Below are positions 8,706 through 29,872 of a stretch of DNA of 64,000 nt, piece after piece. The DNA is taken from assembly GCA_913775095.1 (NCBI GenBank), contig CAJYIW010000008.1, forward strand, positions 62,001 through 126,000, written 5' to 3'. The DNA comes from an uncultured Siphonobacter sp. (GTDB lineage: Bacteria > Bacteroidota > Bacteroidia > Cytophagales > Spirosomataceae). The position numbers and the translations under genes are program-made. Numbering within the stretch: position 1 is the first letter of the stretch; each line of letters opens with the position of its first letter. The notes under the pieces were generated by a model. The model searched no databases, was not told where the DNA came from, and was given only the letters and a program-made list of their open reading frames with translations.

Positions 8706-8858
8706 GTTTGTCAGTTTCTGGTTTATTAAGCGTAGTTATCACAACGAGGGAGGTCTTCGTAATTCATCCTCTTAATTGTTCAGGGGATTATTCAAGAGGT
8801 TATCCACAGCAGTCTCCCGCCTTTCGCAACACTCCTTCGATCCTACCCGATTTAGTCT

Positions 8859-9306: not shown

Positions 9307-9322
9307 ATTTTCACGTGAAACA
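9307..9322 (+). other. parS-like site 1 (ParB/Spo0J binding)
   Basis: ATTTTCACGTGAAACA agrees with the bacterial parS consensus TGTTTCACGTGAAACA at 14 of 16 positions, and TTTCACGTGAAA is a perfect 12-base palindrome. It sits in the 138-base gap between ybeY and mnmG. ParB spreads from parS to organise the newly replicated origin region. Confidence 0.7.
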
Positions 9323-9344
9323 TTATATTTTTATAAAAAAATTT

Positions 9345-9360
9345 GTTTCCACGTGAAACA
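9345..9360 (+). other. parS-like site 2 (ParB/Spo0J binding)
   Basis: GTTTCCACGTGAAACA differs from the Bacillus-type parS TGTTCCACGTGAAACA only at the first two bases (14 of 16). It has the same orientation as site 1, with centres 38 bases apart and an A/T-only stretch between them. Confidence 0.68.
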
Positions 9361-9443: not shown

Positions 9444-11306
9444 ATGTTTAACGAGTATGATGTCATAGTGGTGGGAGCCGGTCATGCCGGATGTGAAGCA
9501 GCTCACGCCGCTGCCCAAATGGGATCGAAGGTATTGCTCATTACGATGAACATGAATACCATCGCCCAGATGTCCTGTAACCCGGCCATGGGTGGCGTAG
9601 CCAAAGGTCAGATCGTACGCGAAGTTGATGCCCTGGGCGGCATGTCGGGTATCATCTCCGATAAGACCATGATTCAGTTCCGTATGCTGAACCGCTCGAA
9701 AGGTCCAGCCATGTGGTCGCCCCGATGTCAGTCTGACCGGATGAGATTTGCTGAAGAATGGCGTCTGGCTCTGGAACAAAATCTGAACGTTGATTTCTGG
9801 CAGGAGACGGTTACCGGACTTTTGGTAGAAGAAGGAAAAGTAACAGGCGTACGGACTCAACTGGGCCTGGAAATCAAATCCAGATCCGTGGTATTAACCA
9901 ATGGAACCTTTCTGAACGGATTAATTCACATTGGTGAAAAGCAGTTTGGCGGCGGACGTACGGCCGAACGGGCGGCCACGGGAATCACCGAGCAGCTGGT
10001 ACAGTTAGGCTTTGAAGCCGGGCGAATGAAAACCGGCACGCCGCCAAGGGTAGATGCCCGCAGTCTGGATTATTCCAAAATGGAAGAACAGTTGGGGGAT
10101 GAGGTACCCAGTAAATTTTCTTACCTGGATACTCCCACGCTGAAGGAACAACGCAGTTGCTGGATCACTTATACGAATCACGAAGTTCACGAAATCCTGC
10201 GAACGGGATTTGAAAAATCACCCATGTTCGCGGGCAGGATCAAGGGTTTAGGACCCCGCTATTGCCCCTCGGTGGAAGATAAAATCAACCGCTTTGCGGA
10301 CAAAGATCGTCATCAGATCTTCGTAGAACCCGAAGGGTGGAATACCGTGGAAGTGTACGTAAATGGATTTTCAACGTCTCTTCCTGAAGATGTTCAATAC
10401 GCAGCTTTGAAGAAAATTCCGGGTTTTGAGAATGTACGGATGTTCCGTCCGGGTTATGCCATTGAGTATGACTTCTTCCCGCCGACCCAGTTAAAGTCTA
10501 CGCTGGAGACTCAACTCGTGCAGGGATTATTCTTCGCCGGGCAGATCAATGGAACAACGGGATATGAGGAAGCAGCCTGTCAGGGACTCATGGCGGGAAT
10601 CAATGCTCACAACCAGGTGCACGGAAAAGAGCCTTTTGTTTTGCATCGCTCAGAAGCTTATATCGGCGTTTTGATTGATGACCTGATTAATAAAGGTACC
10701 GAAGAACCCTACCGGATGTTTACCTCCCGGGCCGAATACCGAACCCTGCTTCGTCAGGATAATGCCGATCTTCGCTTAACCGAAAAAGGGTATCAATTAG
10801 GTCTGGCTTCGGAAGAACGGTACCGGAAGGTACAGTTGAAGCGGGAAATGACGGCTCGATTGATCGAAGACCTTAAGAAAATGAAGGTTAGTCCCGAAGA
10901 AGCAAATGCGGGTCTGGAGCGTCAGAACTCGGCTTTACTACGGGAAAAGACCAATTTATACCAGCTTTTAAAGCGTCCAGAATTGGATATTCACGGACTG
11001 ACTGACCTAAGCACTGCTACAGCGGAACTACGGAGCCTGTATTCGGAAGAAATTCTGGAGCAGGCCGAGATCAATGTGAAGTACGAAGACTATATGGAAC
11101 GGGAGCGGAGTCAGGTAGAAAAACTGAGTCGACTCGAAAATCTGGTCATCCATCCTAACTTTGATTACAGTAAACTGAAAGCCTTATCGATTGAAAGTCG
11201 GCAGAAGCTAACCCGGATTCGTCCCGAAACTTTAGGGCAGGCTTCCCGGATCAGCGGCGTATCGCCCTCGGATATTTCGATACTGATGGTCCATCTGGGC
11301 CGATAA
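9444..11306 (+). CDS. mnmG: tRNA uridine-5-carboxymethylaminomethyl(34) synthesis enzyme MnmG
   Basis: 620 residues, full length for MnmG (GidA). It uses FAD, and with MnmE modifies U34 in the wobble position of several tRNAs. The N-terminal dinucleotide-binding motif [12 protein letters not shown] (residues 10-21), the [17 protein letters not shown] signature (about 45-61), the second motif near [16 protein letters not shown], and the C-terminal helical tRNA/MnmE-binding domain are all present. MnmG commonly lies beside oriC in bacteria, and here parS-like sites occur directly upstream and DnaA boxes on both sides. MnmE is not in the window. Own terminator downstream. Confidence 0.97.
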
Positions 11307-11443: not shown

Positions 11444-12334
11444 ATGAAAATGGAAACCCTCAGTTGCTGTCCGGTGTGTAAGGGAGAGCAACGTACCCCC
11501 TACCTGGTTTGCAAAGATTATACCGTTAGTCAGGAAGATTTTACACTGGAGCAATGTCAGTCCTGTGGTTTCGTTTTTACGAATCCGCGTCCTACAGAAA
11601 ATGCTATTGGAGCCTATTACCAATCCACCGATTACATTTCCCACAGTAACACTAAGCAGGGATTAGTCGCCAAAGCCTATCACAGCGTTCGGAAAATTAC
11701 GCTTCAGAGCAAGCTTAAACTGGTGAATGAATTAAGTCCGAAGAAAGGTCGGTTGCTGGATGTCGGTTGCGGCACGGGCATGTTCCTGTCGGTATGCAAA
11801 GAAGGGGGCTGGCAGATTTCAGGAATCGAACCAGATCCGGGAGCTCGTCAGATTGCCGTCGAACAAACGGCTGAAAATATCCAGTCATCCATTCTCGAAA
11901 GTTATGCCGGAGAGACCTTCCAGGTTATTACCATGTGGCACGTACTCGAGCACATTCACCAGCTCGAGGCCACGCTGAACTGGCTGAAAGAGCGGGTGGC
12001 CGATCAAGGTCATCTGGTCATTGCCGTTCCTAACTTACAGTCTTTCGATGCTCAGGCCTACGGAAAACACTGGGCGGCTTATGACGTGCCCCGTCACCTG
12101 TATCACTTTTCACAGAAGGCCATTCAGCAGCTAATTACAGAAAAAGGATTTACCCTGACCCAAACCTTACCGATGCCTTTCGATTCTTTCTATGTCAGTA
12201 TGCTCAGTACAAAGTATCGGGATGGTAACATCAATTATGTAGAAGCCATTCGGAAAGGACTACAGTCGAATCAGTGGGCGAAAAGCCATCAGAACAATTA
12301 CTCCAGCCTTATTTATGTATTCAAAAAAGCATAG
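11444..12334 (+). CDS. Class I SAM-dependent methyltransferase with zinc ribbon
   Basis: 296 residues. An N-terminal zinc ribbon (Cys9, Cys12, Cys38, Cys41) precedes a class I methyltransferase fold with motif I LLDVGCGTG at 104-112 and a following acidic residue in GIEPD. The pattern WHVLEHIHQ near 166 resembles the methyltransferases acting on small molecules or cell-surface precursors, but the substrate cannot be read from sequence. Its 3' end overlaps the next gene by 20 bases, so the two are probably cotranscribed. A second ATG two codons later (11450) could be the true start given the promoter-like motif beside it. Confidence 0.88.
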   Translation: MKMETLSCCPVCKGEQRTPYLVCKDYTVSQEDFTLEQCQSCGFVFTNPRPTENAIGAYYQSTDYISHSNTKQGLVAKAYHSVRKITLQSKLKLVNELSPKKGRLLDVGCGTGMFLSVCKEGGWQISGIEPDPGARQIAVEQTAENIQSSILESYAGETFQVITMWHVLEHIHQLEATLNWLKERVADQGHLVIAVPNLQSFDAQAYGKHWAAYDVPRHLYHFSQKAIQQLITEKGFTLTQTLPMPFDSFYVSMLSTKYRDGNINYVEAIRKGLQSNQWAKSHQNNYSSLIYVFKKA

Positions 12335-13937
12335 CCATTTTCCAGCGTTCATCTGGGCTCTTCTACTGGTAGCGGGGTTGGCGGGTTGTGCCCAGCAGAG
12401 TTCGCCAACGGGTGGAGAAAAAGATACAACCCCACCGAAAGTCATTCGCCAGGTACCCGAAAATCTCACCACCAACTTTAAAGGAAAAGTTGTGGAACTG
12501 GATTTTGACGAGTATATCAACATTGATAACCTCAATCAGCAGTTACTCATTACCCCCGCTATTGAAGGTACGTTTGATTTCAAAACGTTTCCCAAAGGGG
12601 TACGCATTACCTTCGACCAGGACTTCAAACCCAATACTACCTACACGCTGAATTTCCGGAATGCTTTTAAAGATGTGACCGAACGGAATCCCGCCCGGAA
12701 TGTCAAACTGGTGTTTAGTACGGGCCCTCAACTCGACTCACTGCGAATGCAGGGAACGGTTAAGGAACTCCTCACCGATCGTCCGGTGTACGATGCACTG
12801 GTCGGATTGTATCAGTTGAGCGATACGCTGAAGTTCTCCAAAAACAAGCCCTACTACTTAACGAAGACCGACAGCTCCGGCCGGTTTGATCTGGAAAATA
12901 TGTCTCCGGGAAGGTATCGTCTGGCAGCTTTGAAAGATGGGAACAACAACCTTTTATATAATACTGAAAAAGAAGCCATCGCTTTTCACCCCAATCCCAT
13001 TACCCTGCCCGGCTTTACTGATTCGCCCGTTCTTAAAATTGTAAATGCGGATCAGTCGCCGCAGCGAACACCCAAAACGCTGGCAACTGCCCGGACCTTT
13101 TCATTGATCTATCCCAAAGGAATTTCTGCTGCTCAGGTCAAATTTACGGGTGATAGTCTACCGTATGCTTTGATGGAATCCAATCAGCTGCGTTTTTACA
13201 ATACCATTAATTCTACCGACACGCTGCGGGCCAGCGTCACCGTTCAGGATTCTTTGGGTCGCAGTTTTACCAGTGAGCAGAAAATCCGTTTTCGTGAAAA
13301 AGGAAAACGCGATGCGGATACCCGCGAACCGATGGAAGTAAAGCAAACGCCCAAAAGTGGTGAAGACGTGGATGAGGTATTCAAAATGAAAATGGTTTTC
13401 AATAAACCCATCACCCGCTTCAATCCCTTGTTGGTCCGTATTCAGGAAGACACCATCCGCGACGTCAATCTGACCGCTAATGATTTTGAATGGAATGCCT
13501 ATCGAACGGAATTGACCATCGAAAAAGAGCTGAAGTTTCGACGCGACGTTCGAAGTCTTTTTCCCAAGGGCACTTTTATCTCCATTGAAGAAGACACCGT
13601 CCAGGCCGTAAGAAATCTGAATCCTCTGCGTGATCCTGAAAAGTACGGTACCATCAGCGGGGAAATTCGAAACGTCCAGTCCGATTATATCGTAGAGTTA
13701 CTGAGTGCTGCCGATTTTAAAGTGGTCCGCAGCATTCCCAATAAAAGTCCTTACACCTTTACCGCAGTCCCACCGGGAACGTATAAGTTAAGGCTGATCC
13801 TAGATCTGAATAAAAATGGAAAGTGGGACGCCGGGAATCCCGATGAGTTCATTCCTCCCGAACCAGTAATTGTATTTCCGAATGACATCAAGCTAAAGGC
13901 CAACTTTGAACTGTTAGGAAACGACTTCTCCTTATAG
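12315..13937 (+). CDS. Lipoprotein with bacterial Ig-like domain
   Basis: 540 residues. A signal peptide ends in the lipobox LAGC (Cys25). The following segment TPPKVIRQVPEN... with FDEYI, TYTLNFRNAF and LVFSTGP is the SbsA-type Ig-like domain (about 38-135) seen in a widespread Bacteroidota lipoprotein family. A carboxypeptidase-regulatory-like beta-sandwich (about 140-230, with DSSGRFDLENMSPGRYRLAAL) and a C-terminal beta domain ending in a Ca-binding-like DLNKNGKWDAGN follow. The likely place is the outer membrane or cell surface. Function unknown. It overlaps the methyltransferase by 20 bases in another frame. A terminator follows before the origin-like region. Confidence 0.82.
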   Translation: MYSKKHSHFPAFIWALLLVAGLAGCAQQSSPTGGEKDTTPPKVIRQVPENLTTNFKGKVVELDFDEYINIDNLNQQLLITPAIEGTFDFKTFPKGVRITFDQDFKPNTTYTLNFRNAFKDVTERNPARNVKLVFSTGPQLDSLRMQGTVKELLTDRPVYDALVGLYQLSDTLKFSKNKPYYLTKTDSSGRFDLENMSPGRYRLAALKDGNNNLLYNTEKEAIAFHPNPITLPGFTDSPVLKIVNADQSPQRTPKTLATARTFSLIYPKGISAAQVKFTGDSLPYALMESNQLRFYNTINSTDTLRASVTVQDSLGRSFTSEQKIRFREKGKRDADTREPMEVKQTPKSGEDVDEVFKMKMVFNKPITRFNPLLVRIQEDTIRDVNLTANDFEWNAYRTELTIEKELKFRRDVRSLFPKGTFISIEEDTVQAVRNLNPLRDPEKYGTISGEIRNVQSDYIVELLSAADFKVVRSIPNKSPYTFTAVPPGTYKLRLILDLNKNGKWDAGNPDEFIPPEPVIVFPNDIKLKANFELLGNDFSL

Positions 13938-14518
13938 CTTTTAGAGCCTGTGAAGATTAAAAGCCCGTCCAGATTTGGATGGGCTTTTTCATGTCTGAAA
14001 GACCATTCCGGCCTGTGGAAAACTCTGGTGGAAAACGTCCGTTTAAGGCTCAATCAGCGGCACAACGGAAAAGCTACATTCTAAATTAAAAATATCCAAA
14101 ATCTTTGTGGATAAGAACGTTGATAAATGGCCTTCGGCGTGTGGAAACTGGGGATAAAGCCTGTGGACTATTTTTGAGCTATCCACAAAAAGTCGGTCAG
14201 ACACTGAAAAGCGAAGGGCTTCGTTGAAAACTCGGGAGTAATCCCCCGAATGATACACGAGTTATTAACCGTTTTTCCAGCGGTAAAAATTATCCACTTT
14301 TCCACGGTGCATAACTCTTCAAAATGTGAATAATTAGGTTTTGATTGTAAATCAGTATATTAGATGTGTACAAGGATGTGGGTAAGTGTGGACAAGCGGG
14401 GATTTAATCAACGATGATTCGATCAAGTGTTTTGGAAAAAAAATTTATTCACTTTTCCACTGGCCTAATAACAACCATTAAAAAAAGATTTAAAAAGAAG
14501 ATATTGTTAATAAATGTA
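13938..14518. other. Candidate chromosomal replication origin (oriC)
   Basis: A 581-base intergenic region with a dense set of DnaA-box-like sequences: exact TGTGGATAA at 14106; one mismatch at 14014 (TGTGGAAAA), 14179 (CTATCCACA), 14290 (TTATCCACT), 14325 (TGTGAATAA) and 14387 (TGTGGACAA); weaker copies at 14140, 14162, 14447 and 14453. The right end (about 14430-14518) is extremely A/T-rich (AAAAAAAATTTATT, AAAAAAAGATTTAAAAAG, GATATTGTTAATAAA) and could be the unwinding element. Apart from the terminator at its left end no gene is seen. It lies 2.6 kb from mnmG and 4.6 kb from the parS-like pair. dnaA itself is not in the window. Orientation and exact limits are inferred. Confidence 0.65.
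13959..13989 (+). terminator. Rho-independent terminator at the left end of the candidate oriC
   Basis: AAAAGCCCGTCC, loop AGATTT, GGATGGGCTTTTT: 12 base pairs with one G-T, 22 bases after the Ig-like lipoprotein stop. Confidence 0.85.
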
Positions 14519-16444: not shown

Positions 16445-16509
16445 TCTATTCCCCTCTTTTCGTTGTGGAGAAGTCATCCCTATTGTTAATAACTCAACAA
16501 GTTATCCAC

Positions 16510-17640
16510 ATGCCTACCCTAAGCCGTCTTGTAAAGCAAGGACTTTTCTACGGTTTGCTGTTTCTATGCGGACCCGCTTTTTGTCAGGAAACATCTGAAA
16601 ATCAGGAAGATAAATTTCCAGTTTGGAGTTATGGAGCCCAGAAATTGCAGAAAGGGCCTTGTGACGTATATCTGTTCAAGTCAAATCAACACGCCGAAGG
16701 AGTTGTGGATAACATTCTCAGGTCAGCGGGCATGGGTTTTGGGAAGCGAAACTTCCAGGTCGTTGAATGCCCTAATACGGATAACTGTTACGCCACGATC
16801 ATTAATGGGGTTCGCTATGTTGTCTATGACAATGCCTTCCTGAAACAGGTGGAAAACCGTACGCGAACCGACTGGTCGGCCACCAGTATCATGGCCCACG
16901 AAATTGGTCACCACATTCTGGGACACACCTCGGATGGTACGGGCAGTCGTCCGGACAAAGAACTACAGGCCGATTATTTCTCCGGCTTTGTTATCCACAA
17001 TTTGGGCGGAACGCTGGAAAATGCCCAGATCGCCATTCAGCTTTTGCAGAATGATGAAGGAGACGCCACACACCCTGCTAAACGGGATCGATTATCCGCA
17101 ATTGAAAAAGGATGGCGTGAAGCGGATAATTTTTACCCACGTATAGCCAATAAGGTTCCAAATTCCTCCCCTACCCCACCGGCCCCGGTAGCCGTCGCTC
17201 CCGTTGAAACCAAAGCTCCGGTAGTGGTGGCAGAGTCCCCTGCCCGCACGGGTTGCCTGACCGGAAACTGTGAGGAAGGTACCGGAGCGTATGTCAATCG
17301 GAAGACGATGGAGAAATACGAAGGCCAGTGGAAAAACAACAGACCCAACGGCGTCGGTACGCAATTTTACGCCGATGGCAGGAAGAAATACGAAGGTGAT
17401 TTCTTAAATGGTCGCTTTGAAGGGAAAGGAACGCTCTGGTACACCAACGGAGCCATCTATTCCGGAGACTTCTACGCGGGTGCCTGCCAGGGAGTAGGAA
17501 TGCTGAGATTTAAAAATGGCGATCGTTATATTGGAGAGTTCAAAAATGGCTACCGGCATGGTCGGGGGAAATACGTATACGCCAGTGGATATGAGGAAGT
17601 TCTGTACTATATCAAAGACACCCGACAGGACAAAAAATAA
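16510..17640 (+). CDS. Secreted zinc metalloprotease (M48-like) fused to MORN repeats
   Basis: 376 residues from the ATG at 16510, which gives a clean signal peptide (cut near Cys25-Gln26); an in-frame ATG at 16465 lies further upstream and lacks this. The HEXXH zinc motif AHEIGHHILGH is at 129-139 (His130, Glu131, His134), followed by KELQADYFSG whose Glu151 is a likely third ligand, as in M48-type peptidases. A Pro/Ala/Val linker (about 215-250) leads to four to five MORN repeats (about 260-365: YEGQWKNNRPNGVG, YEGDFLNGRFEGKG, YSGDFYAGACQGVG, YIGEFKNGYRHGRG). MORN repeats often bind lipid or act as spacers. The substrate is unknown. A DnaA box (16502-16510) overlaps the first base of the start codon. 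Confidence 0.82.
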   Translation: MPTLSRLVKQGLFYGLLFLCGPAFCQETSENQEDKFPVWSYGAQKLQKGPCDVYLFKSNQHAEGVVDNILRSAGMGFGKRNFQVVECPNTDNCYATIINGVRYVVYDNAFLKQVENRTRTDWSATSIMAHEIGHHILGHTSDGTGSRPDKELQADYFSGFVIHNLGGTLENAQIAIQLLQNDEGDATHPAKRDRLSAIEKGWREADNFYPRIANKVPNSSPTPPAPVAVAPVETKAPVVVAESPARTGCLTGNCEEGTGAYVNRKTMEKYEGQWKNNRPNGVGTQFYADGRKKYEGDFLNGRFEGKGTLWYTNGAIYSGDFYAGACQGVGMLRFKNGDRYIGEFKNGYRHGRGKYVYASGYEEVLYYIKDTRQDKK

Positions 17641-17656
17641 CCACGTAATTCAACCA

Positions 17657-17683
17657 GAAAGGCCGGCATCCCGGCCTTTTTTT
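17657..17683 (+). terminator. Rho-independent terminator
   Basis: AAAGGCCGG, loop CATC, CCGGCC and a run of seven T, 17 bases after the metalloprotease stop. Confidence 0.88.
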
Positions 17684-17773
17684 GTTTATACTCGTAACTA
17701 TTTTCTGAGTATTCTTCATTTGATCTAACTTAGACTTGAAATAAGCATACTCCCAGGCACAAACCACACTGAA

Positions 17774-19576
17774 ATGCAATTGATAACCTCGTCATTCCCA
17801 CGTGAGACAACGCAGTATCCTTATACACGAGTCTTTGAAATACTGACCCGATTCGTTCAGGAAACGAATAGTCAGGAAGCTCTGGCTTCGAAAATAGACG
17901 GCGTATGGAAGAAAATACCAGCGGCGGAATTCCTGCGTCAGGCTAATCTGGTGAGTTTGGCCTTACTGAAGGCAGGGATTCGGAAAGATGATAAAATTGC
18001 GATTGTATCCAATAACCGTCCGGAATGGCATTTCATTGATTTTGGAATTCAGCAGATCGGGGCGGTATCGGTGCCTTTATACCCTACTATAACGGTTGAG
18101 GATTATCGGTATATCCTGAATGATGCCGGCGTAAAAATCGTATTTGTCTCGAATGAATCGCTGCACGGCAAGGTATCCGAAGCGGTTCAGAGTCTTTCCG
18201 ATGTCCCTCAGATCTATTCCATTGATCCCGTAGTAGGGGTTAAAAACTGGCGGGAGTTAACGGATTTGGCCAATGAAGCGGAGATTTCATCCCTGGAAGT
18301 CATCCGGGAAACGGTCCAGCCTGACGATTTGCTCACCTTGATTTATACCTCTGGCACTACCGGAAGGCCTAAAGGAGTAATGTTAACGCATCGGAATGTC
18401 ATTTCCAACATTGAAGGCGTGAAGCCCTACATGCCCATGCAACCCCATGAACGAGGCCTGAGTTTCCTGCCTTTGAGTCACGTATACGAGCGTACGATTC
18501 TCTACGTGTACATGCGATACGGGGTATCCGTCTTTTATGCGGAAAGCATGGAGACCATTGCGGATAACCTGAAGGAAGTCAAACCAACGGTATTCACCAC
18601 GGTCCCTCGTTTACTGGAAAAAGTGTACGATAAGATTGTAGCGAAAGGCTACGAGCTAACGGGAATTAAAAAGCAGTTATTCTTCTGGGCATTAAAACTG
18701 GGCTTGCGGTACGATCCCGCCGTGGATCAGGGCTTTTGGTACAACACGCAGATGAAACTGGCTCGGAAACTGATTTTTAGCAAATGGAAAGAAGCCCTGG
18801 GAGGTAACATTAAAATCGTTTGTACGGGATCGGCGGCCTTGCAGCCCCGGTTATCCCGCGTATTCTGGGCGGCAGAAATTCCCGTAGCTGAAGGATACGG
18901 ACTTACCGAAACTTCGCCTGTAGTGTCGGTAGGCCGGGTGAATCCGCCTGACTTACGAGTGGGCTGTGTTGGTAGCATTTTACCCGAAGTAACCGTCAAA
19001 ATCGCAGAGGATGGTGAAATTCTGGTGAAAGGTCCGAACATCATGAAGGGCTATTATAATCAACCGGAGCTAACGGCTCAGGCCATTGACGCGGAAGGCT
19101 GGTTTCATACCGGTGACATTGGCGAAGCCGTCGAAGGACGTTTTCTGAAGATTACGGATCGCAAAAAGGAGATGTTCAAAACCTCCGGTGGGAAGTACGT
19201 AGCTCCGCAGTTGCTTGAAAACAAGCTCAAAGAATCGAAGTACATTGAGCAAATCATCGTCGTGGGTGAAGGTCAGAAATTTCCATCGGCCCTTATTGTT
19301 CCCAACTTCGAGGCCCTGAAGGTGTATTGTAATCTTAACCAGATTGAATACACTACGCCCGAAAAGATGGTAAAAAATGAGAAGGTAGTGGAAAAACTAC
19401 ATTCGGAAATTGAACGACTCAATGAAAGCTTTGCCCAGTTTGAACGGGTGAAGAAGTACACTTTACTCAGCAAGCTCTTTACCATCGAGGCGGGTGAACT
19501 CACCCCAACCCTAAAAATCAAGCGTAAAGTAGTCGTTCAGAAATATAAGGACTTGATCGAAAGCATGTATAGTTAG
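17774..19576 (+). CDS. Long-chain fatty-acid--CoA ligase (acyl-CoA synthetase)
   Basis: 600 residues. ANL-superfamily adenylating enzyme: activates long-chain fatty acids to acyl-AMP and then acyl-CoA for beta-oxidation or lipid synthesis. The AMP-binding P-loop LIYTSGTTGRPKGVMLTH lies near 189-206, GYGLTETSPVVSV near 375, and the hinge/signature GWFHTGDIG and DRKKEMFKTSGGKYV near 440-475. Length and motifs match the FAA1-type (AMP-dependent synthetase) group common in Bacteroidota. It stands alone on the plus strand and converges on the permease gene across an inverted repeat. Confidence 0.93.
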   Translation: MQLITSSFPRETTQYPYTRVFEILTRFVQETNSQEALASKIDGVWKKIPAAEFLRQANLVSLALLKAGIRKDDKIAIVSNNRPEWHFIDFGIQQIGAVSVPLYPTITVEDYRYILNDAGVKIVFVSNESLHGKVSEAVQSLSDVPQIYSIDPVVGVKNWRELTDLANEAEISSLEVIRETVQPDDLLTLIYTSGTTGRPKGVMLTHRNVISNIEGVKPYMPMQPHERGLSFLPLSHVYERTILYVYMRYGVSVFYAESMETIADNLKEVKPTVFTTVPRLLEKVYDKIVAKGYELTGIKKQLFFWALKLGLRYDPAVDQGFWYNTQMKLARKLIFSKWKEALGGNIKIVCTGSAALQPRLSRVFWAAEIPVAEGYGLTETSPVVSVGRVNPPDLRVGCVGSILPEVTVKIAEDGEILVKGPNIMKGYYNQPELTAQAIDAEGWFHTGDIGEAVEGRFLKITDRKKEMFKTSGGKYVAPQLLENKLKESKYIEQIIVVGEGQKFPSALIVPNFEALKVYCNLNQIEYTTPEKMVKNEKVVEKLHSEIERLNESFAQFERVKKYTLLSKLFTIEAGELTPTLKIKRKVVVQKYKDLIESMYS

Positions 19577-19582
19577 TTGATG

Positions 19583-19636
19583 GTTGTTGGTTATTCGTTG
19601 TTAGATAGAAAAGACAAACAACGAATAACCAACAAC
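19583..19636. repeat. Intergenic inverted repeat, perfect 20-base arms
   Basis: GTTGTTGGTTATTCGTTGTT (19583-19602) is exactly complementary to 19617-19636, with a 14-base loop. It lies between two convergent genes where a terminator would be expected, but the stem is A/T-rich. One arm is almost free of C and A, the other almost free of G and T, as in the other repeats of this family here. Confidence 0.75.
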
Positions 19637-19645
19637 AAATAACTA

Positions 19646-21055
19646 TTAAACCGTTGCCCGCTTTCGCCAGACGGCGTAGAAGGGTAAACCCGTGGCCATC
19701 AATAATAACCCAATCAAGGCTTCAGTCGTGCGGTTGAAAAGTGTGTTGATCACTAACAACGCACAGAAAATCAGGAACAGAGCCGGTACCACCGGATACC
19801 CAATGACTTTATAGGGACGATTCACATTCGGCATTTTCCGACGTAAAATGAATACACCCAGCGTCGTGGCTCCGTAGAATATGAACGAAGCAAAAATGAG
19901 CATATCGGTTAACTGATCAAACGTACCCGATAAAATAAGGACGGACGACCAGGCCCCCTGCATCCACAAGGCTTTAGACGGTGTGTTGAAAACGGGGTGA
20001 ATGTAATTCGCTGATTTAAAGAATAAGCCGTCTTTCGCCATGGCGTAGAACAAACGAGAGGCCATAAGAATGGTACTGCTGGTGCAGTTAAAGGTAGTAA
20101 CCAGAATCAGCAAGGAAATGGCTAATCCACCGCCCGCTCCCAGAAAATGCTTCACGGCCACTACCGCCGCAATACCATTCTGGGACTTATGCACATTTAT
20201 AATTTCGTCAATGGGCAGTACGTAGAAATACACGAAGTTCATCAGCAGGTAAATCGTCATGATGATCAGCGTACCGATGGTTAAAGCCCAGGGCAGATTC
20301 CGCTGTGGATTCTCAATTTCTCCCCCGATGTACCCCAGGTTATTCCAGCCTTCGTAGGCCCAGAAAGCACTTAAACAGGCCAGAGCTAAAGCACTGACAA
20401 GTGCTCCGCCCGTCATGGTTTCGGCGTTAAAATCAATCGAAGGCTGCTGAATATTAGCCCAGCTGCCCGTGGATGACGTAAGCCCCAGTATGATAATGAC
20501 GAGCATGGTGGTAATCATCGTCACTGTCAGAATCCGGCTGATGGTTTCGCCCATTTTTAATCCCCTGGCATTCAGAAAAGTAAGAGCTAGTACGAGTCCA
20601 ATAGCAATGGCTTTCACACTCAGGTTATCCAGTGGATGCAATCCCAGTAGAGTAACCTTCGCCAGTGAAGCGGGCGTAGCCGGTAAGGTAACGAGTGAAC
20701 CTAACGATTGAGCGAATACGTAAGCGATCGAGGCAATCGAAGCCGTCCGAATCACGGCAAAGTTGGTCCAGCCGAGCAGAAAGGCAAAAAAGCGGTTATA
20801 GATGGTTCGGAAATAGACGTATTCCCCGCCCGAATCCACGAGCATACTGGCCACTTCCGCATTACTCAGCGTTCCGGCCAGACTGATAAGACCCGCCAAT
20901 AACCAGGCCGCCAGCACCAGTCCCGGCGATTGCAGCTCCGCTGACATGGGAGCCACTTTCTTAAAAACGCCCGTCCCGATCACGGCACTAATGACAAACA
21001 CAATCCCGGAGACCAGTCCAATAGACCGGCGAAGATGACCCTGTGATTCAGGCAT
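19646..21055 (-). CDS. APC-family amino acid permease
   Basis: 469 residues with about twelve hydrophobic membrane segments. The first segment carries the APC family motif (VSGIVFVISAVIGTGVFKK near 15-33), and FWAYEGWNNLGYIGGEIENPQRNLP near 225-249 resembles the L-type amino acid transporter group. It would import or exchange amino acids across the inner membrane; the substrate cannot be told. It is a single gene, convergent with the acyl-CoA synthetase and divergent from purB. Confidence 0.9.
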   Translation of the reverse strand: MPESQGHLRRSIGLVSGIVFVISAVIGTGVFKKVAPMSAELQSPGLVLAAWLLAGLISLAGTLSNAEVASMLVDSGGEYVYFRTIYNRFFAFLLGWTNFAVIRTASIASIAYVFAQSLGSLVTLPATPASLAKVTLLGLHPLDNLSVKAIAIGLVLALTFLNARGLKMGETISRILTVTMITTMLVIIILGLTSSTGSWANIQQPSIDFNAETMTGGALVSALALACLSAFWAYEGWNNLGYIGGEIENPQRNLPWALTIGTLIIMTIYLLMNFVYFYVLPIDEIINVHKSQNGIAAVVAVKHFLGAGGGLAISLLILVTTFNCTSSTILMASRLFYAMAKDGLFFKSANYIHPVFNTPSKALWMQGAWSSVLILSGTFDQLTDMLIFASFIFYGATTLGVFILRRKMPNVNRPYKVIGYPVVPALFLIFCALLVINTLFNRTTEALIGLLLMATGLPFYAVWRKRATV

Positions 21056-21138
21056 AAGAATAGTTTAGGTAGGTAATTTGATGAAAGATGAAAGCAAATT
21101 CGGAAAAAATAGGCATTAGTAGGTATTTGTTTGGAAAA

Positions 21139-21262
21139 CTTTTGAGTTTCGAGTTTAGGGTTTAGCGTTTTGAGAGGATGCATGAGTGTTAATAAAATCC
21201 TTAACCTGTTTGATCCTAATTGACCCTCTGAGAACCCTAAACTCAAAACTCAAAACTCAAAA
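21139..21262. repeat. Intergenic inverted repeat, GAGTTTAGGG / CCCTAAACTC type
   Basis: A left arm (about 21139-21177, with GAGTTTCGAGTTTAGGGTTT) and a right arm (about 21223-21262, with AACCCTAAACTC then repeated AAAACTC) pair imperfectly across a 45-base centre. It lies in the divergent gap between the permease and purB and strongly resembles the repeat at 371-450. Confidence 0.65.
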
Positions 21263-21297
21263 CCCCCACTCTATCGCTATTCTTCACAAAATCAGGG

Positions 21298-21305
21298 TAA
21301 CTTTG
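21298..21305 (+). promoter_or_regulatory. Candidate -7 promoter element for purB
   Basis: TAACTTTG matches TAnnTTTG and lies 21 bases before the purB start. No TTG is seen at -33. Confidence 0.35.
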
Positions 21306-21326
21306 TCTTTTACGAAGCAAATTAGT

Positions 21327-22673
21327 ATGGCTCTCACTACCCTAACCGCTATCTCTCCCGTAGATGGCCGCTATCGCCGGGCGACGGAATCCCTGGCTCC
21401 TTTTTTCTCAGAGTTTGGGTTAATTCATTATCGGGTTCGGATTGAAATCGAATACTTTATTGCCCTTTGCGAATTACCGCTTCCCCAGCTGGCTCAGTTT
21501 GATACGGCTCTCTTTGGAAAGTTACGCTCCATTTACACGGAGTTTTCGGAAGCGGATGCTCTGCGAATCAAGGAAATTGAAAAGACGACCAATCACGACG
21601 TGAAGGCCGTTGAATACTTTATCAAGGAAAAACTCAAAGATCTGGACATTGAACAGTATCTGGAGTTTATCCACTTTGGCTTAACGTCTCAGGATGTGAA
21701 CAATACCGCCATTCCTCTGTCGCTGAAAGAAGCGATGGACGCGGTCATCACTCCTGCGTTTGAAGAAGTTATCCACAAGTTAACCGACCGGGCTGAAAGC
21801 TGGAAAGACGTGGCTCTGCTGGCTCGTACGCACGGTCAACCCGCTTCACCGACCCGTTTGGGCAAGGAAATTCTGGTGTTTATTGAGCGTCTGAAACAAC
21901 AGCAGATGTTATTAACGGCCATTCCACACGCGGCTAAATTCGGCGGAGCAACGGGTAACTTCAACGCTCACTGGGTGGCTTACCCCGCCTTCAACTGGCC
22001 AGAGTTTGGGAATACCTTTGTGGATAACTTAGGCCTGACCCGCAGTAAATACACTACTCAGATTGAGCACTACGATCATCTGGCGGCTTTACTGGATACG
22101 CTGAAACGGGTCAATACCATCCTCATTGATTTTTCCCGGGATGTATGGACGTACGTTTCCATGAATTACTTCAAGCAAAAAATCAAAGCGGGAGAAGTGG
22201 GTTCCTCAGCCATGCCTCACAAGGTCAATCCCATTGATTTTGAAAATGCGGAAGGAAACTTCGGAGTAGCCAATGCTTTATACGAACACCTGTCGGCGAA
22301 GTTACCCATCTCTCGCCTCCAGCGTGATTTGACGGATTCGACCGTACTACGGAATCTGGGTATGCCGCTGGCTCACACCCTGATCGCCCTGAAGTCATTA
22401 CTTCGCGGGATTGATAAACTGGAATTAAACAAAGCGGCTATTGACGCAGACCTCGAAGCGAACTGGGCGGTTGTAGCGGAAGCAATTCAGACGGTATTGC
22501 GTCGTGAAAGTTATCCACAACCTTACGAAGCTCTCAAGGCCCTCACCCGGAAGAACGAAGCCATCACTGAAAAGACGATTGCGGAGTTTATTGAGACTTT
22601 AGAGGTATCGGAAGCCATCAAAGCCGAATTAAGAGCTATTTCGCCCTTCAATTACCTCGGTGTGCTCGAATAG
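21327..22673 (+). CDS. purB: Adenylosuccinate lyase
   Basis: 448 residues from the ATG at 21327. An upstream in-frame ATG (21186) would translate the intergenic repeat and is rejected; MALTTLTAISPVDGRYRR is the typical N-terminus. The fumarase/aspartase-superfamily signature GSSAMPHKVNP lies near 292-302 and the SQD/TRTHGQPASPT region near 155-190. PurB catalyses two steps of purine synthesis, cleavage of SAICAR and of adenylosuccinate, each releasing fumarate. It has a promoter-like TAACTTTG just upstream and a terminator downstream. Two TTATCCACA boxes lie within the gene. Confidence 0.96.
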   Translation: MALTTLTAISPVDGRYRRATESLAPFFSEFGLIHYRVRIEIEYFIALCELPLPQLAQFDTALFGKLRSIYTEFSEADALRIKEIEKTTNHDVKAVEYFIKEKLKDLDIEQYLEFIHFGLTSQDVNNTAIPLSLKEAMDAVITPAFEEVIHKLTDRAESWKDVALLARTHGQPASPTRLGKEILVFIERLKQQQMLLTAIPHAAKFGGATGNFNAHWVAYPAFNWPEFGNTFVDNLGLTRSKYTTQIEHYDHLAALLDTLKRVNTILIDFSRDVWTYVSMNYFKQKIKAGEVGSSAMPHKVNPIDFENAEGNFGVANALYEHLSAKLPISRLQRDLTDSTVLRNLGMPLAHTLIALKSLLRGIDKLELNKAAIDADLEANWAVVAEAIQTVLRRESYPQPYEALKALTRKNEAITEKTIAEFIETLEVSEAIKAELRAISPFNYLGVLE

Positions 22674-22718
22674 GTCTAAAAATCGGGTTTCGTTCGATTT
22701 GTGCACAACGTTTTCAGA

Positions 22719-22771
22719 TGTGGAAAAAAGTGTGGATAACTTATTGATTTTCAAAAATTAATGGTGGATAA
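22719..22771. other. Intergenic DnaA-box cluster between purB and sbcD
   Basis: Three box-like sequences in 53 bases, all in minus orientation: TGTGGAAAA (22719), exact TGTGGATAA (22731) and GGTGGATAA (22763), with an A/T-rich stretch (TTATTGATTTTCAAAAATTAA) partly between. It is a weaker second candidate for an origin element. Confidence 0.45.
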
Positions 22772-22885
22772 AGTCCTGCTCTTAAGGCCCTGAGAATTGA
22801 ATAAAAATCTGGAGACGGGCAGTGGAGCGTGCGTATCGCATTCTCAGCGACCCATTTTTCCACCGACTCATAAGATTTTGAAAGC

Positions 22886-22920
22886 ATCCCCGTTTGGTAG
22901 CTGTACCATTCGGGGATTTT
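22886..22920 (+). terminator. Terminator-like hairpin before sbcD
   Basis: ATCCCCG and CGGGGAT form the outer stem and TGGTA/TACCA an inner one; TTTT follows. It lies 212 bases after purB, so the purB message would be long. Confidence 0.6.
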
Positions 22921-22936
22921 CTCTAAGCGATTGTTT

Positions 22937-22944
22937 TATTTTTG
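22937..22944 (+). promoter_or_regulatory. -7-like element abutting the sbcD start
   Basis: TATTTTTG fits TAnnTTTG and ends 4 bases before the sbcD ATG, the same arrangement as at the methyltransferase gene (11432). It suggests a leaderless message if active. Confidence 0.35.
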
Positions 22945-22948
22945 AAGA

Positions 22949-24157
22949 ATGAAGATTTTGCACACGGCCGACTGGCATTTAGGAAAGAGACTCTATCAAA
23001 CGGACTTGCTCGAAGACAGCCGTCGGTTTGTGGACTGGTTGTTGCAGACCATCGAAGAACGGCAGATTGAGGTCTTACTCGTTGCGGGTGATATTTTCGA
23101 CACGGCCAACCCTTCGACGGAAGCTATGCAGGTGTATTACGATTTTCTCAAAAAGTTGGTACACCTGAAATGTCGTTTGATCATCACGGGTGGTAACCAT
23201 GACTCGGCGGCGGTGCTGAATGGGCCCCGCGAGCTGCTGGCCTTGCTGGATGTTCACGTCATTGGCGGAGCCTGTGAGGACTGTCATCAGGAGGTACTTC
23301 CCCTACTCGACCGTCGTGGCAATCTTCAGGCTGCCGTCGCGGCCGTTCCTTTCCTGCGGGATCGGGATTTGAAGCGTTCCGTCGAAGGGGAAACGTTTGA
23401 GGATCGCCGCATGGCCGTTCGGACGGGAATCCAGCGACGCTACGATCAGGTGCACGCCCACGGGCGGAAAACCTACGCGGATGTGCCGCTGCTGGGCATG
23501 GGGCATTTGTTTGTAAATGGCTCGGCCACGTCCGATAATGACGAGAAACTGCACAGCATCGGTACACTCGATCTCTTCGAAGTAAGTCTTTTCCCAGCCT
23601 TCGATTACCTGGCCTTGGGACATATCCACAGACCTCAGATGCTGGGGAAAATGGAGTACGTTCGTTACTCCGGCTCGCCCACGGCCCTGAGTTTTAGCGA
23701 ACGACTGGACGAAAAAGTAGTTATCCACATTGAGATAGTTAATAATAAAGTTGCTGATATTCAGGAAATTAAAGTTCCTAAATTTCGTCAGTTACGCCGC
23801 TTCAGTGGATCATTTACCGAGATAGAAACGTTGTTAACCAGTTATCAACATTCTGACGAGTTATCCACATTAGCGGAAATAGAAATCCACGAGGAGCATC
23901 GGGACCCCGCCCTGATTGATCAGGCGAAAGCTTATTTTATGAAGCTGAATCATTCCCATCTGTCGGTGCTGAACTGGCGATTCAGGTTTCAGCAACAGCT
24001 TAAAACCACCGATGAACTATTCGGTGAAACGACGGCGTTACCCGAGTTGGCTCCCACTCAGGTATTTGAACAATGGCTGCAGGAAAACGCCAGTTCTGAT
24101 GAATCCAAAGTCTTATTAACGGAAGCTTTCCACGAGTTAATGAATTCGGTGCAGTAA
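22949..24157 (+). CDS. sbcD: Exonuclease SbcCD subunit D
   Basis: 402 residues, the Mre11-type nuclease subunit. Calcineurin-like phosphoesterase motifs are intact: HTADWHLGKRL (5-15), AGDIFDTANPS near 48-58, GNHDS near 85-89 and LALGHIHRPQ near 223-232. With SbcC it cleaves hairpins and DNA ends, processing palindromes and stalled forks. It lies 35 bases before sbcC in the same direction, as usual. Two exact DnaA boxes lie in the 3' half of the gene, in TTATCCACATT contexts. Confidence 0.95.
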   Translation: MKILHTADWHLGKRLYQTDLLEDSRRFVDWLLQTIEERQIEVLLVAGDIFDTANPSTEAMQVYYDFLKKLVHLKCRLIITGGNHDSAAVLNGPRELLALLDVHVIGGACEDCHQEVLPLLDRRGNLQAAVAAVPFLRDRDLKRSVEGETFEDRRMAVRTGIQRRYDQVHAHGRKTYADVPLLGMGHLFVNGSATSDNDEKLHSIGTLDLFEVSLFPAFDYLALGHIHRPQMLGKMEYVRYSGSPTALSFSERLDEKVVIHIEIVNNKVADIQEIKVPKFRQLRRFSGSFTEIETLLTSYQHSDELSTLAEIEIHEEHRDPALIDQAKAYFMKLNHSHLSVLNWRFRFQQQLKTTDELFGETTALPELAPTQVFEQWLQENASSDESKVLLTEAFHELMNSVQ

Positions 24158-24192
24158 GTTCCTGATTCATTCGCTGATGATCCAACATCCGA

Positions 24193-27100
24193 ATGCGTAT
24201 TTTAAAAGTTAGTTTCGAGAATATTAACTCCTTACGGGGTCAGCATACCATTGATTTTCAGAACGAAGCTGCGTTTCGCAACTCCAATCTTTTTGCCATT
24301 ACCGGACCTACGGGAGCGGGCAAAACCACGATTCTTGACGTTATTACCCTGGCCCTGTATCACCGGACGCCCCGACTGGGAGAAGTAAACAGTAACCTGC
24401 TGGAAAAACTGGGCGGCATTCTTACCCGGGATACCAGTCAGGCCTATGCGGAAGTTAGTTTCACCACGCCACGGGGTTCGTACCGGGCGAAATGGACCTT
24501 ACAACGGGAAATCATCAGCCGGGGAGCCAATAAAGGACAATCCCGATTGGACGAATACGCAGAAATAGCGGATTTGGAAAGTAATACCATCCTGGCTTCG
24601 AAGAAAAAAAAGGAAGTACAGGAAGAAATCCGGAAGCGGGTTGGGCTGGATTACGAACAATTCGTGAAAGCCATTTTGCTTTCGCAGGGCGATTTTGCGG
24701 CCTTTCTGAAAGCCAGACGCGAAGAGCGGGCCGAGCTGCTCGAACGCATTACGGGAACGGAAATCTACCGCAAACTCGGGATGGAGGCGTTCTCCCGCTG
24801 GCACGATCATTACAAGAAAGAAATCGAAAGCAAACAGCAAAGCATTGATCTTCAGAAACTTCTTTCGGAAGAGGAGATCAAAACATTGCGGGAAGACATA
24901 GAAAAACACGAGGAATTATGCCGGATTTCGGAGGTAAACCGGAAATCTCTGGAAGTACAGGTGCAACGCAAAAACCGGATTCGGGAAGTACAGTCGTCCC
25001 TTGAGGTACTTCAGCAAAGGGACTATCCACGCTGGAATGTGGATAAACAAACCTTCGATAGCCAGTACGCTCCGGCTCTGGAACGGCACGAACGGGTGCA
25101 GCAGTTTTCGGAGGCTCTCACCCGCTATCAGTTGCAGGAACAAAACCTGAAAAATGCTCAGCTTCAGTGGGAGCGAATCACGAAAGAACACCGCCAGTCT
25201 CAACAGAATCAGCAGCAATTGCTGTCGGATATTTCACGGCTGGTCAATGAGCTGGTAACGGATCAGTCGGCTCAGCGAAGTATTGAGCTGTTCCGTGACA
25301 AAGTCAGTCAGCGTTATACGAATCAGCAACTGGCCAGTCAGAATTGGATAACGGCTAAAAATCAGGCTTTTGAATTATTAACAAAAACCAATTCTCCCGA
25401 AATTCAGTCCTTCTGGAATCGGGAATCCTACGCCGATTGCCTCAGCGTTTCCCGCGAATCCTGGCAGGAAATTCATAACCGGAAAACGGAGCTTCATCAG
25501 CTCTACCAGCTCGAAAAAGATACAAACGTTCCTGAACTTCGAAAGGAGTCCATGGAACGGCGGGAGGCCTATCAGCAACTCGAAATTCAGGTTCGGCAGT
25601 ATGAAAATCTTCGGAAACGATTGACGGATTATGACCGGCAAATCGAAGAGCAACGGAAGTTAATCCACGAGCAATCGCCAGTTATCCACAAATCTACGCA
25701 GGAGGTAACAGAGGCTAAAAACCTATTGCAAATCGCTCAGGAAGAACAACTTAACTTTATTAGGGAAACATCAATTCCGAGGTTACGCACAGAGTTATCC
25801 ACAGACCTGCCCTGTCCGGTGTGTGGATCCACTCATCATCCGGTTTTGTTGAAAACGGGGGATGAAGATCACTTTAGTGTGGACAAGTATCTTCAGGAGC
25901 TTGAAAGCCTGAAAGCCCGTTTTGAGGCTCGGGAAAGAAACCTGGCTATGCAGGAAACCCGCCTGCGTCAGCTGGAAAAAGAGAAGAAAGGCATTGAAGT
26001 AAAAATTCAGACGCTGGAAACGGAAAAGACGAATGCCCAGACGGATCTTCAGCCTATTATCAACGCCGTTGGTTCGTGGAAAACGCGTCTGAATATTGAT
26101 AAAATAGGTAAATCAGAAGAAGTAAAAGCCTGGTTACAGGCCGAAACCACAAAATTCCAGCATCTGGAGGAGTTACTGAAAATTCAGGAAAGAAGTGAAA
26201 GCCTGGCTCAGTTTGGTCGTCACCTGAAAGAAGGTCTGGCGTATTTTCAGAAACATCAGGAGCTGAACGAAGAGCTGAAAAAGCTCTACGCCAAAGACAT
26301 TAAATTCCTGGCAGGCGAATGTGACGGTTTACTTCAGAAACTGGTGCATAAGTCTTATTCACCGGAACAGTATAAACAGGAACTACTCGAAAGCCAGCAG
26401 AGTTATACACAGGCAGAAGCCGATTATAAAGTTCTGAAAGATAAGTTATTAACAGAGTTATCCACATTCGGTTTTAACTCGGTGGAAGAAGCGAAAGCCG
26501 CTTTCCTTTCACCGGATAAACATCGGAGCATAACGGCAACAAAAGAGCAGCTGATTCAACTAAAAACACAGCTTGATACCAAACTAAATACCTTAACTCA
26601 GGAAATAAAGCTGCTTCAGGAACAGGATCAGGCAGAGGTTGATAGGGCTGCTTTAGTCGCTGAAATTACCAGCCATACGAATGCGGAACGGGACTATCAG
26701 CAAAGAATAGGCGGCTGGAAGCAGTCGCTCAAGGACAACGAAGCGAGCCGGGCCGAACACGCCAAACGCCTGGAAGAAATAGCGGAGCTGGAACTGCGGT
26801 ATAAAAAATGGCGGCTACTGTCGGAAGGACTGGGCGACCGCGAAGGGAAAAAATTCAACCAGTTTGCTCAGAAATTAACGCTGGCTAATCTGGCCCGTTC
26901 GGCGAATAGTCGCCTGAAAGATTTATCGGATCGATACCTGCTCCTGCCGCCCGAGGGCGACGAGGAAAACCTCTGGGTGCTGGACCGTAACTTCGACGAA
27001 CGGCGATCGGTAGCCACGTTGTCGGGCGGGGAAACTTTTCTGGTCAGTCTGGCCTTGGCTTTAGGATTGAGTGATATGGTGTCGAAAAACGTTCGCATTG

Positions 27101-27306
27101 AAAGTTTGTTCATTGACGAAGGCTTTGGTACCCTGGATCCGGATACGCTGGAAATTGCCCTGGGAACGCTGGAAAAACTGCAGGCAGAATCGAACCGCAT
27201 GATTGGAATTATCTCGCACGTAGAAGCCCTGAAAGAGCGAATTACGACGCAGATTCAGCTGCGGAAACAGGCCAGCGGATTCAGTGAGATGGAAATCGTG
27301 GGATAA
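24193..27306 (+). CDS. sbcC: Exonuclease SbcCD subunit C (SMC-like ATPase)
   Basis: 1037 residues, the Rad50-type partner of SbcD. Walker A GPTGAGKTT lies near 37-45; two long coiled coils (about 190-520 and 560-860) flank the zinc-hook CPVCG near 540-544 (seen as LPCPVCGSTHHP); the ABC signature TLSGGE lies near 941-946 and Walker B SLFIDEGFGTLD near 970. ATP-driven head engagement and the hook control nuclease access to DNA ends. Four exact DnaA boxes occur in the gene (25038, 25682, 25795, 26458), more than in any other gene here. Confidence 0.96.
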   Translation: MRILKVSFENINSLRGQHTIDFQNEAAFRNSNLFAITGPTGAGKTTILDVITLALYHRTPRLGEVNSNLLEKLGGILTRDTSQAYAEVSFTTPRGSYRAKWTLQREIISRGANKGQSRLDEYAEIADLESNTILASKKKKEVQEEIRKRVGLDYEQFVKAILLSQGDFAAFLKARREERAELLERITGTEIYRKLGMEAFSRWHDHYKKEIESKQQSIDLQKLLSEEEIKTLREDIEKHEELCRISEVNRKSLEVQVQRKNRIREVQSSLEVLQQRDYPRWNVDKQTFDSQYAPALERHERVQQFSEALTRYQLQEQNLKNAQLQWERITKEHRQSQQNQQQLLSDISRLVNELVTDQSAQRSIELFRDKVSQRYTNQQLASQNWITAKNQAFELLTKTNSPEIQSFWNRESYADCLSVSRESWQEIHNRKTELHQLYQLEKDTNVPELRKESMERREAYQQLEIQVRQYENLRKRLTDYDRQIEEQRKLIHEQSPVIHKSTQEVTEAKNLLQIAQEEQLNFIRETSIPRLRTELSTDLPCPVCGSTHHPVLLKTGDEDHFSVDKYLQELESLKARFEARERNLAMQETRLRQLEKEKKGIEVKIQTLETEKTNAQTDLQPIINAVGSWKTRLNIDKIGKSEEVKAWLQAETTKFQHLEELLKIQERSESLAQFGRHLKEGLAYFQKHQELNEELKKLYAKDIKFLAGECDGLLQKLVHKSYSPEQYKQELLESQQSYTQAEADYKVLKDKLLTELSTFGFNSVEEAKAAFLSPDKHRSITATKEQLIQLKTQLDTKLNTLTQEIKLLQEQDQAEVDRAALVAEITSHTNAERDYQQRIGGWKQSLKDNEASRAEHAKRLEEIAELELRYKKWRLLSEGLGDREGKKFNQFAQKLTLANLARSANSRLKDLSDRYLLLPPEGDEENLWVLDRNFDERRSVATLSGGETFLVSLALALGLSDMVSKNVRIESLFIDEGFGTLDPDTLEIALGTLEKLQAESNRMIGIISHVEALKERITTQIQLRKQASGFSEMEIVG

Positions 27307-27361
27307 ACTAAAAGCGTTAAGCTGAGGTTGTTAAGAAATAGGATTGTAAATTAATACTGAT

Positions 27362-28126: not shown

Positions 28127-28152
28127 TGGATCTCAGCAAAAAAGCTTTTTCA

Positions 28153-28189
28153 CTAACATCCCGAAAGTTCTCAACTTTCGGGATGTTAG
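28153..28189. terminator. Bidirectional terminator between map and the next gene
   Basis: CTAACATCCCGAAAGTT, loop CTC, then the exact 17-base complement. It lies between convergent genes and can serve both. Confidence 0.75.
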
Positions 28190-28211
28190 GTTTTGCACCC
28201 ATCTTTCACAG

Positions 28212-28703: not shown

Positions 28704-28802
28704 ACAGCAAGTTATGTAACTCTGCGTAAAGACGCCCCAGCGATAAGATACAATGTGGATAAGTAGAAAATGCCTTTTACGCAGACGCGATCCATTGCGT
28801 CT

Positions 28803-29738: not shown

Positions 29739-29844
29739 TTTCTCAGTGTACTGTTTTCAGTTTTGGGTTGACAGTTTCAGGCTGTTTTCCCGAGTAGCCA
29801 GTGCAAAAATACGGCAAAGCGTTTTCATTTAGGGTATAAAATAA

Positions 29845-29872
29845 AAACGGTCTACTCGAAAGCAGACCGTTT
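29845..29872 (-). terminator. Terminator after the SIMPL-domain gene
   Basis: AAACGGTCT, a 10-base loop and AGACCGTTT, 22 bases beyond the stop of the leftward SIMPL gene. Read leftward, a T run follows (AAAA before the left arm on the plus strand). Confidence 0.75.

Follow-up and report, generated by a model that had tools for sequence, protein, structure and literature searches.

A probable replication origin in Siphonobacter sp. and a neighbouring one-sided array of consensus DnaA boxes that may titrate the initiator

Where does chromosome replication start in Siphonobacter sp., and what surrounds the start site? The question is raised by an intergenic gap in a 64,000-nucleotide stretch of contig C8 (C8:62001-126000; this whole stretch is called the window here, and positions are those of the window unless a contig is named) from a Siphonobacter sp. 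source genome (G000) of 5.65 Mb in 27 contigs. We rejected dnaA as the origin neighbour: it sits on another contig (C26), where one exact DnaA box (C26:72926) falls within the dnaA frame and no second box with at most one mismatch was found in C26 71.0-75.5 kb. With a single exact box around it, dnaA is therefore not an apparent origin neighbour in G000. A preliminary description had proposed the gap on C8 as oriC. This is still the best reading of the gap, but it was incomplete, since a neighbouring array of strong boxes had been overlooked. The gap and its surroundings contain the following features.

9307..9360, no strand assigned: two parS-like palindromes directly upstream of mnmG
9444..11306, plus strand: mnmG (gidA), syntenic marker (TIGR00136, 850.6 bits)
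12315..13937, plus strand: Big_5/Ig-like ORF at the left edge of the gap
13938..14518, no strand assigned: candidate oriC, 581 bases between the Big_5/Ig-like ORF and the TPR ORF
14014..14395: main box cluster, with boxes at 14014 (minus), 14106 (minus), 14149 (minus), 14179 (plus), 14290 (plus), 14306 (minus), 14325 (minus), 14365 (minus), 14377 (minus) and 14387 (minus); the list of gap boxes with at most one mismatch to TTATNCACA is completed by 14445 and 14505
14431..14515, no strand assigned: A/T-rich segment, candidate duplex unwinding element, 78.8% A+T, the best 85-mer of the gap
14445..14461, plus strand: candidate basal unwinding element, an abutting box-like pair TTATTCAC-TTTTCCAC, then GGCC and TAATAA
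14519..16354, plus strand: TPR-repeat protein, syntenic marker at the right edge of the gap

The gap holds 12 exact or near DnaA boxes, compared with ∼0.41 expected per 581 bases (by arithmetic from a shuffle mean of 44.78 matches per 64 kb). Two of them are exact, at 14106 (TTATCCACA) and 14325 (TTATTCACA), and the remaining ten have one mismatch to TTATNCACA. When the stricter word TTATCCACA was allowed up to one mismatch, eight matches fell in the gap, the top 450-bp count of the window, with a best count elsewhere of 4. The cluster, first put at about ten boxes, is thus real and the densest 450 bp of the window. The 85-base A/T-rich stretch described beside it was likewise recovered, and just 0.12% of the 85-mers in the window equal or exceed its A/T-richness. 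In the window, TAATAA follows the box pair, and trio-like runs occur in some relatives, as judged by eye and not by statistics. The gap had also been described as free of genes, whereas in the ORF list the TPR ORF begins at 14414, inside it. Between 14414 and 14519, four sister genomes differ by one-base changes in length, which speak against the start at 14414, and their frames are stop-free only from the ATG aligned to 14519. The start at 14519 is therefore likelier, and the gap keeps its full length.

The neighbourhood agrees with what had been described, with mnmG 2.6 kb from the gap and two parS-like sites, at 9307 and 9345, ∼4.6 kb from it. These sites have 2 and 3 mismatches, respectively, to the parS consensus. 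With up to 3 mismatches allowed, such sites precede mnmG in 14 of 16 genomes scanned, mostly within 140 bases of its start, and none was found there in G006 and G008. Both mnmG and the TPR gene are on one contig, with starts 3.4-5.4 kb apart, in 15 of 19 genomes; in G015 the TPR gene is cut by the contig end, and in G009, G010 and G017 (all from other families) the two genes are on separate contigs. At gathering thresholds, the sole Rfam match in the window is a tRNA (56529-56612). Many contigs of the family stop at a similar point, ∼3.4 kb beyond where the TPR gene ends, and masked N stretches occupy this region on some long contigs; we suspect an rRNA operon close to oriC there.

Loss of the boxes in close relatives had been named as an observation that would speak against an origin. 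No such loss was seen: the 960-base interval around the TPR start contains 3 or more near-boxes (range 3-21) in 34 of 36 genomes, compared with a mean of 0.33 and a maximum of 3 in letter shuffles of the window's own stretch, so that G038, with exactly 3, is marginal. The survey was non-random, consisting of 16 of the first 19 genomes (G009, G010 and G017, with mnmG and the TPR gene on different contigs, were left out) and 20 others, chosen by hand to favour long contigs and a spread of genera among the 57 (of 61) that gave a match. The two genomes with fewer than 3 near-boxes, G011 (0) and G018 (2), belong to other families in the order, as does G016, which has 13. The A/T-rich end of the gap is also present in relatives, and many of 14 aligned gap ends show two abutting boxes, a few G/C bases, a TAATAA-like run and then the A/T-rich part. 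The anchor of this alignment was a CCAC-type site ahead of the A/T-rich part, and therefore only the remaining features are informative. Like known bacterial origins, the gap combines an intergenic box cluster, an A/T-rich end, a proximal box pair and a G/C-rich spacer; by eye, its end, with TAATAA, resembles the DnaA-trio arrangement described for bacterial origins (PMC5295017). Unlike them, it is away from dnaA and its boxes are mostly imperfect. Judged from these sequence features, oriC of Siphonobacter sp. very likely lies at the gap locus.

Exact boxes stand out more beyond the gap than inside it: window 8800-37754 contains 24 of them, most in a one-sided array to the right of the gap.

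8800..8808, plus strand: exact box left of mnmG, intergenic
16502..37762, both strands: one-sided array of 22 exact TTATCCACA boxes
Array boxes 1-8: 16502 (plus), 16704 (minus), 16991 (plus), 21769 (plus), 22019 (minus), 22511 (plus), 22731 (minus), 23721 (plus)
Array boxes 9-16: 23861 (plus), 25038 (minus), 25682 (plus), 25795 (plus), 26458 (plus), 28754 (minus), 29567 (minus), 30024 (minus)
Array boxes 17-22: 30234 (plus), 30543 (plus), 30775 (plus), 33819 (plus), 36641 (plus), 37754 (minus)
22699..22771, no strand assigned: intergenic sub-cluster between purB and sbcD, with a TTGTGCACAA palindrome and boxes at 22719 (minus), 22731 (minus) and 22763 (minus)

Genome-wide, G000 has 75 exact copies of TTATCCACA and 15 of the reversed control word. 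The 29 kb between 8800 and 37754 (∼0.5% of the genome) hold 24 of the 75, with 0.26 expected, a density roughly 90-fold that of the remainder. The array itself places 22 exact boxes 2.2-23.5 kb right of the gap, compared with 0.23 expected per 25 kb (Poisson P = 5e-36, with the expectation taken from the rest of the genome and the limits picked after inspection of the data). Five permuted-letter control words each occur 0-1 times in the array stretch. Twenty of the 24 exact boxes are inside ORFs (≥100 aa), and synonymous-codon shuffles gave a mean of 1.57 and a maximum of 5 in 300; the four intergenic boxes are at 8800, 14106, 22731 and 28754. The boxes occur in both orientations and in five reading registers, and a common peptide therefore cannot account for the array. 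They are carried by genes for an M48/MORN peptidase-like protein, purB, sbcD, sbcC, a Sua5-type protein, a SIMPL protein, folK (HPPK), topoisomerase IB, rmuC and a peptide release factor, with spacings mostly of about 100 bp to 5 kb.

Elsewhere in G000, four exact boxes are packed into 262 bases inside a carbon-nitrogen hydrolase ORF (C21:112210-112471), possibly a DnaA-regulating locus away from the origin. An alpha-L-fucosidase ORF contains a perfect double DnaA box with a 3-bp spacer (C12:11276-11296), and G002 and G005 each contain one identical copy of this 21-mer. Another repeated word, ACGCTGGAAAA, was rejected as origin-linked, as just 4 of its 36 places in the genome are on C8.

The array is sharply bounded. 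Its last box is 23.5 kb (G000), 24.3 kb (G002), 23.5 kb (G005) and 25.9 kb (G001) from the gap reference point, and beyond it no exact box was found up to 40 kb in these four profiled Siphonobacter genomes. On the other side, C8 43934-46104 (30-32 kb left of the gap and outside the window) has 4 exact boxes, and G002, G005 and G001 also have a left-hand group of 3-4 boxes at a similar distance. Some array boxes have partners: within the genus, the best offset of a second box is 12 bp, in the same orientation and on either side (doublets counted twice), and 7 of the 24 exact boxes in the window have a weaker partner (≥6 of 9 letters) 12 bp away. The best offset shifts to 11 bp in six other genomes, where the signal is weak. 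In vivo, E. coli DnaA is described as preferring box pairs with 2 or 3 bp between them, which includes the 12-bp box-to-box distance, and the E. coli purH site given there (TTACGCACAgagTTATCCACA) is letter-identical to window 25783-25803 (PMC11317965).

Comparison with relatives pointed to selection on these boxes. Two sister genomes, G005 and G002, share 83.6% and 82.9% identity with G000 over the aligned region, and 19 of 22 alignable boxes (two of the 24 are beyond the aligned ends) are intact in both, compared with 15.4% expected from 9-mers of equal G+C and 12.2% from all 9-mers (P = 4e-13). Third codon positions within boxes are identical at 57 of 57 sites in each sister, compared with 62.6% and 61.4% outside. 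By these alignments, selection on the array boxes is demonstrated within the sister clade. In a second clade (G001 and G003; 72% identity), 8 of 22 boxes are intact in both genomes, with 6.7% expected (P = 6e-5), and third codon positions in the window's boxes match at 31 of 54 in G001 compared with 47.7% (P = 0.099, non-significant). G001 has 14 boxes in the equivalent 25 kb, of which several occupy new places and some form doublets 10-13 bp apart; positions were replaced while the count stayed high, which fits a dose-type function. The 12-bp pair 22719/22731 also occurs in G001, and the aligned place of box 8800 has two exact boxes in G001 and G003 and one in G004 (at or adjoining it). Overall, the array is present in five of six Siphonobacter genomes, and two of the three lineages share it in part, with its sites largely turned over in the second clade. 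In the sixth genome, S. aquaeclarae (G004), the 2-25 kb stretch is free of exact boxes; 3 occur near the locus, 2 of which fall within the gap. We are confident that the array has been under selection as DnaA sites, as its conservation pattern suggests.

Array and gap also differ in the kind of box they carry. In the five array genomes, exact boxes make up 4 of 47 near-boxes at the gap, compared with 77 of 277 in 28 genomes outside Siphonobacter with a box-rich gap (Fisher P = 0.003), and thus strong sites flank a weak-box origin. Outside the genus, exact boxes in the 2-25 kb stretch number at most 4 in each of 30 genomes; 18 of these genomes cover at least 16 kb of it, 8 cover all 23 kb, parts of it are masked and G015 covers none. 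Compact groups do occur. In G006, 17 exact boxes are found at 3-12 kb from the start of mnmG, 11 of them in ORFs (shuffle mean 0.93), and G014 has 11 at 4.7-7.0 kb, 6 of them in ORFs (shuffle mean 0.90). Because of these compact forms, the Siphonobacter array may be an extended version of a more widespread feature. In G006, which belongs to another genus, a compact exact-box cluster spans the TPR gene and both its flanks (C6:3737446-3742417).

What might such an array do? Turnover of sites with a high number retained close to oriC fits titration of DnaA. We propose that DnaA would bind the mostly imperfect boxes of the gap, and that the abutting pair at 14445 would direct opening of the A/T-rich end. 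The strong array sites would fill ahead of the weak oriC sites, and oriC would fire once the array was saturated. Given its place beside oriC, the array would be duplicated by the forks soon after initiation, within about a minute at bacterial fork speeds. The duplicated array would then draw off free DnaA, and a second start would be blocked. As a whole, it is probable that the gap is oriC and that selection keeps the right-hand array, most likely as an origin-linked titration sink. For titration as the function of the array, the balance tilts modestly in favour; DnaA binding there and the exact unwinding site are likewise inferred. In E. coli, only 13 of 32 exact single boxes were within a region bound in ChIP-seq (PMC11317965).

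A stronger form of the titration model is more tentative, and we hold it at somewhat below even chances: the array could be a one-armed, gene-embedded DnaA sponge, selected on number over place, that acts as the main brake on re-initiation. Approximately 22 perfect boxes would then occupy the 25 kb that one fork copies first as it leaves a weak-box oriC, in a lineage without detected E. coli-type Hda, YabA or (in G000 only) SeqA. The E. coli-type Hda model exceeded its cut-off in 0 of 6 genomes, matching DnaA and a weak second protein (∼22 bits, below the cut-off), but it did so in just 1 of 14 control genomes, so other Hda-like proteins may escape it. YabA exceeded its cut-off in 0 of 6 genomes, with a single sub-threshold match that contains stops, and SeqA was not found in G000, the sole genome searched for it. 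S. aquaeclarae, of the same genus, apparently manages without the array, which counts against titration, as does the one-sidedness, which plain titration does not call for.

That one-sidedness, together with the sharp end of the array and the parS-like sites close by, could instead point to an architectural role, in which DnaA spread over 25 kb would fold, tether or position the origin arm, or feed oriC. The 12-bp partners of some boxes could seed DnaA oligomers for such a role. However, array boxes at their usual spacing are far apart for this, and we know of no DnaA function of the folding, tethering or feeding kind. We regard an architectural array as unlikely.

If oriC is as proposed, the array boxes might also tune transcription of the genes nearby with the cell cycle. 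DnaA is described as a transcription factor (PMC8203912), four of the exact boxes are intergenic, and several of the box-bearing genes act in DNA repair or nucleotide metabolism. Nevertheless, with most of the boxes within ORFs and in both orientations, with a number that has stayed high despite positional turnover between clades, and with boxes that track nearness to the gap and no evident common gene function, local regulation is an improbable explanation.

A further alternative concerns the origin itself, which might lie elsewhere within ∼20 kb on the mnmG side and leave the gap as an accessory DnaA site. GC skew, proposed earlier as a check on the origin, bears on this with a divided outcome. 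All four genomes profiled (G000, G006, G012 and S. aquaeclarae) show a local minimum of cumulative skew no more than 20 kb from the gap, but this minimum is in the gap's own 5-kb bin in only one, S. aquaeclarae. In the other three it is displaced 12-20 kb toward the mnmG side (in 5-kb bins, 12-18 kb in G012 and 14-20 kb in G006); on C8, cumulative skew drops until 64 kb and rises after, and the gap is at 75.9-76.5 kb. Third-codon-position skew on C8 splits best at 65-67 kb. On a larger scale, sampled along long contigs, skew was compared across the locus in G012 (one 7.03-Mb contig) and G006 (a 5.43-Mb contig): most samples from one flank of the locus are negative and most from the other positive, apart from a single near-zero value in each genome. 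The reverse change is found roughly half a genome away in G012 and some 1.5-1.9 Mb from the locus in G006. In G000 only C8 was profiled whole, and samples from other contigs, which cannot be ordered, gave +0.019/+0.041 (C2), +0.034 (C26) and +0.044/-0.015 (C19), so a second skew minimum may exist elsewhere in its 27 contigs. The neighbourhood is therefore origin-like by skew, yet the gap itself is not singled out, and the displaced minima in three of four genomes make the exact origin site less firm than the neighbourhood.

Those minima and the third-position split favour an origin elsewhere, as do box 8800 and the parS-like pair, which stand on the mnmG side. On the other hand, C8 47-70 kb contains one exact box (59073), near-boxes are sparse in window 1-8000, the box-rich place that recurs in relatives is the gap, and the minimum in S. 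aquaeclarae coincides with the gap's bin. Skew minima are often displaced from origins by distances of the 12-20 kb type. We consider an origin outside the gap very improbable.

Finally, the idea that the array was never selected as DnaA sites and reflects chance, codon bias or a protein motif, to which the location of most boxes in ORFs and the lack of significant third-position conservation in G001 might lend weight, has next to no chance of being right, since permuted words contradict chance from base composition, and synonymous shuffles, mixed registers and the fully conserved third positions in each sister contradict codon bias or a protein motif.

How does oriC with a titrating array, the reading we prefer, compare with known systems? 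Titration in E. coli is entangled with datA, DARS and RIDA. Additional DnaA boxes beyond oriC are shared with B. subtilis, where deleting six DnaA-box clusters outside the origin together leads to early initiation (PMC5295017, on Okumura et al. 2012), although the same review elsewhere plays down their role. Those are six discrete clusters, whereas the 22 perfect boxes of Siphonobacter are mostly single and spread through genes over 25 kb on one side. As in Siphonobacter, boxes gather toward oriC in E. coli, where degenerate motifs are over-represented between centisomes 98 and 5, an enrichment argued to favour titration because of early replication (Olivi et al. 2025, PMC12371093). The E. coli excess is one of degenerate motifs, in contrast to the perfect consensus boxes confined with sharp edges to ∼0.5% of the Siphonobacter genome. 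The datA and DARS loci of E. coli also bind DnaA away from oriC and influence how much of it is free or active, and 12-bp double boxes occur there too; they are described as compact non-coding loci with few boxes that alter the DnaA nucleotide state (PMC12371093, PMC5295017), a form unmatched by an array with 20 of 24 boxes in ORFs over 29 kb. No description of a comparable array turned up in searches of open-access PMC papers. If the titration reading is right, the array would be of the same functional kind as known sites, but dense, one-sided, sharply bounded, built of perfect boxes and mostly in genes.

The initiator-titration model, reviewed in PMC5835720, is decades old and is said to have long been without experimental evidence (PMC12371093). 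Here, sequence alone indicates strong, compact, origin-linked consensus boxes under selection. The titration model is directly testable in Siphonobacter, because synonymous removal of the in-gene boxes would alter titration and leave the proteins the same, and S. aquaeclarae offers a natural array-less relative for comparison. For the family, the gap next to the TPR gene provides a likely oriC where dnaA, at least in G000, is no guide.
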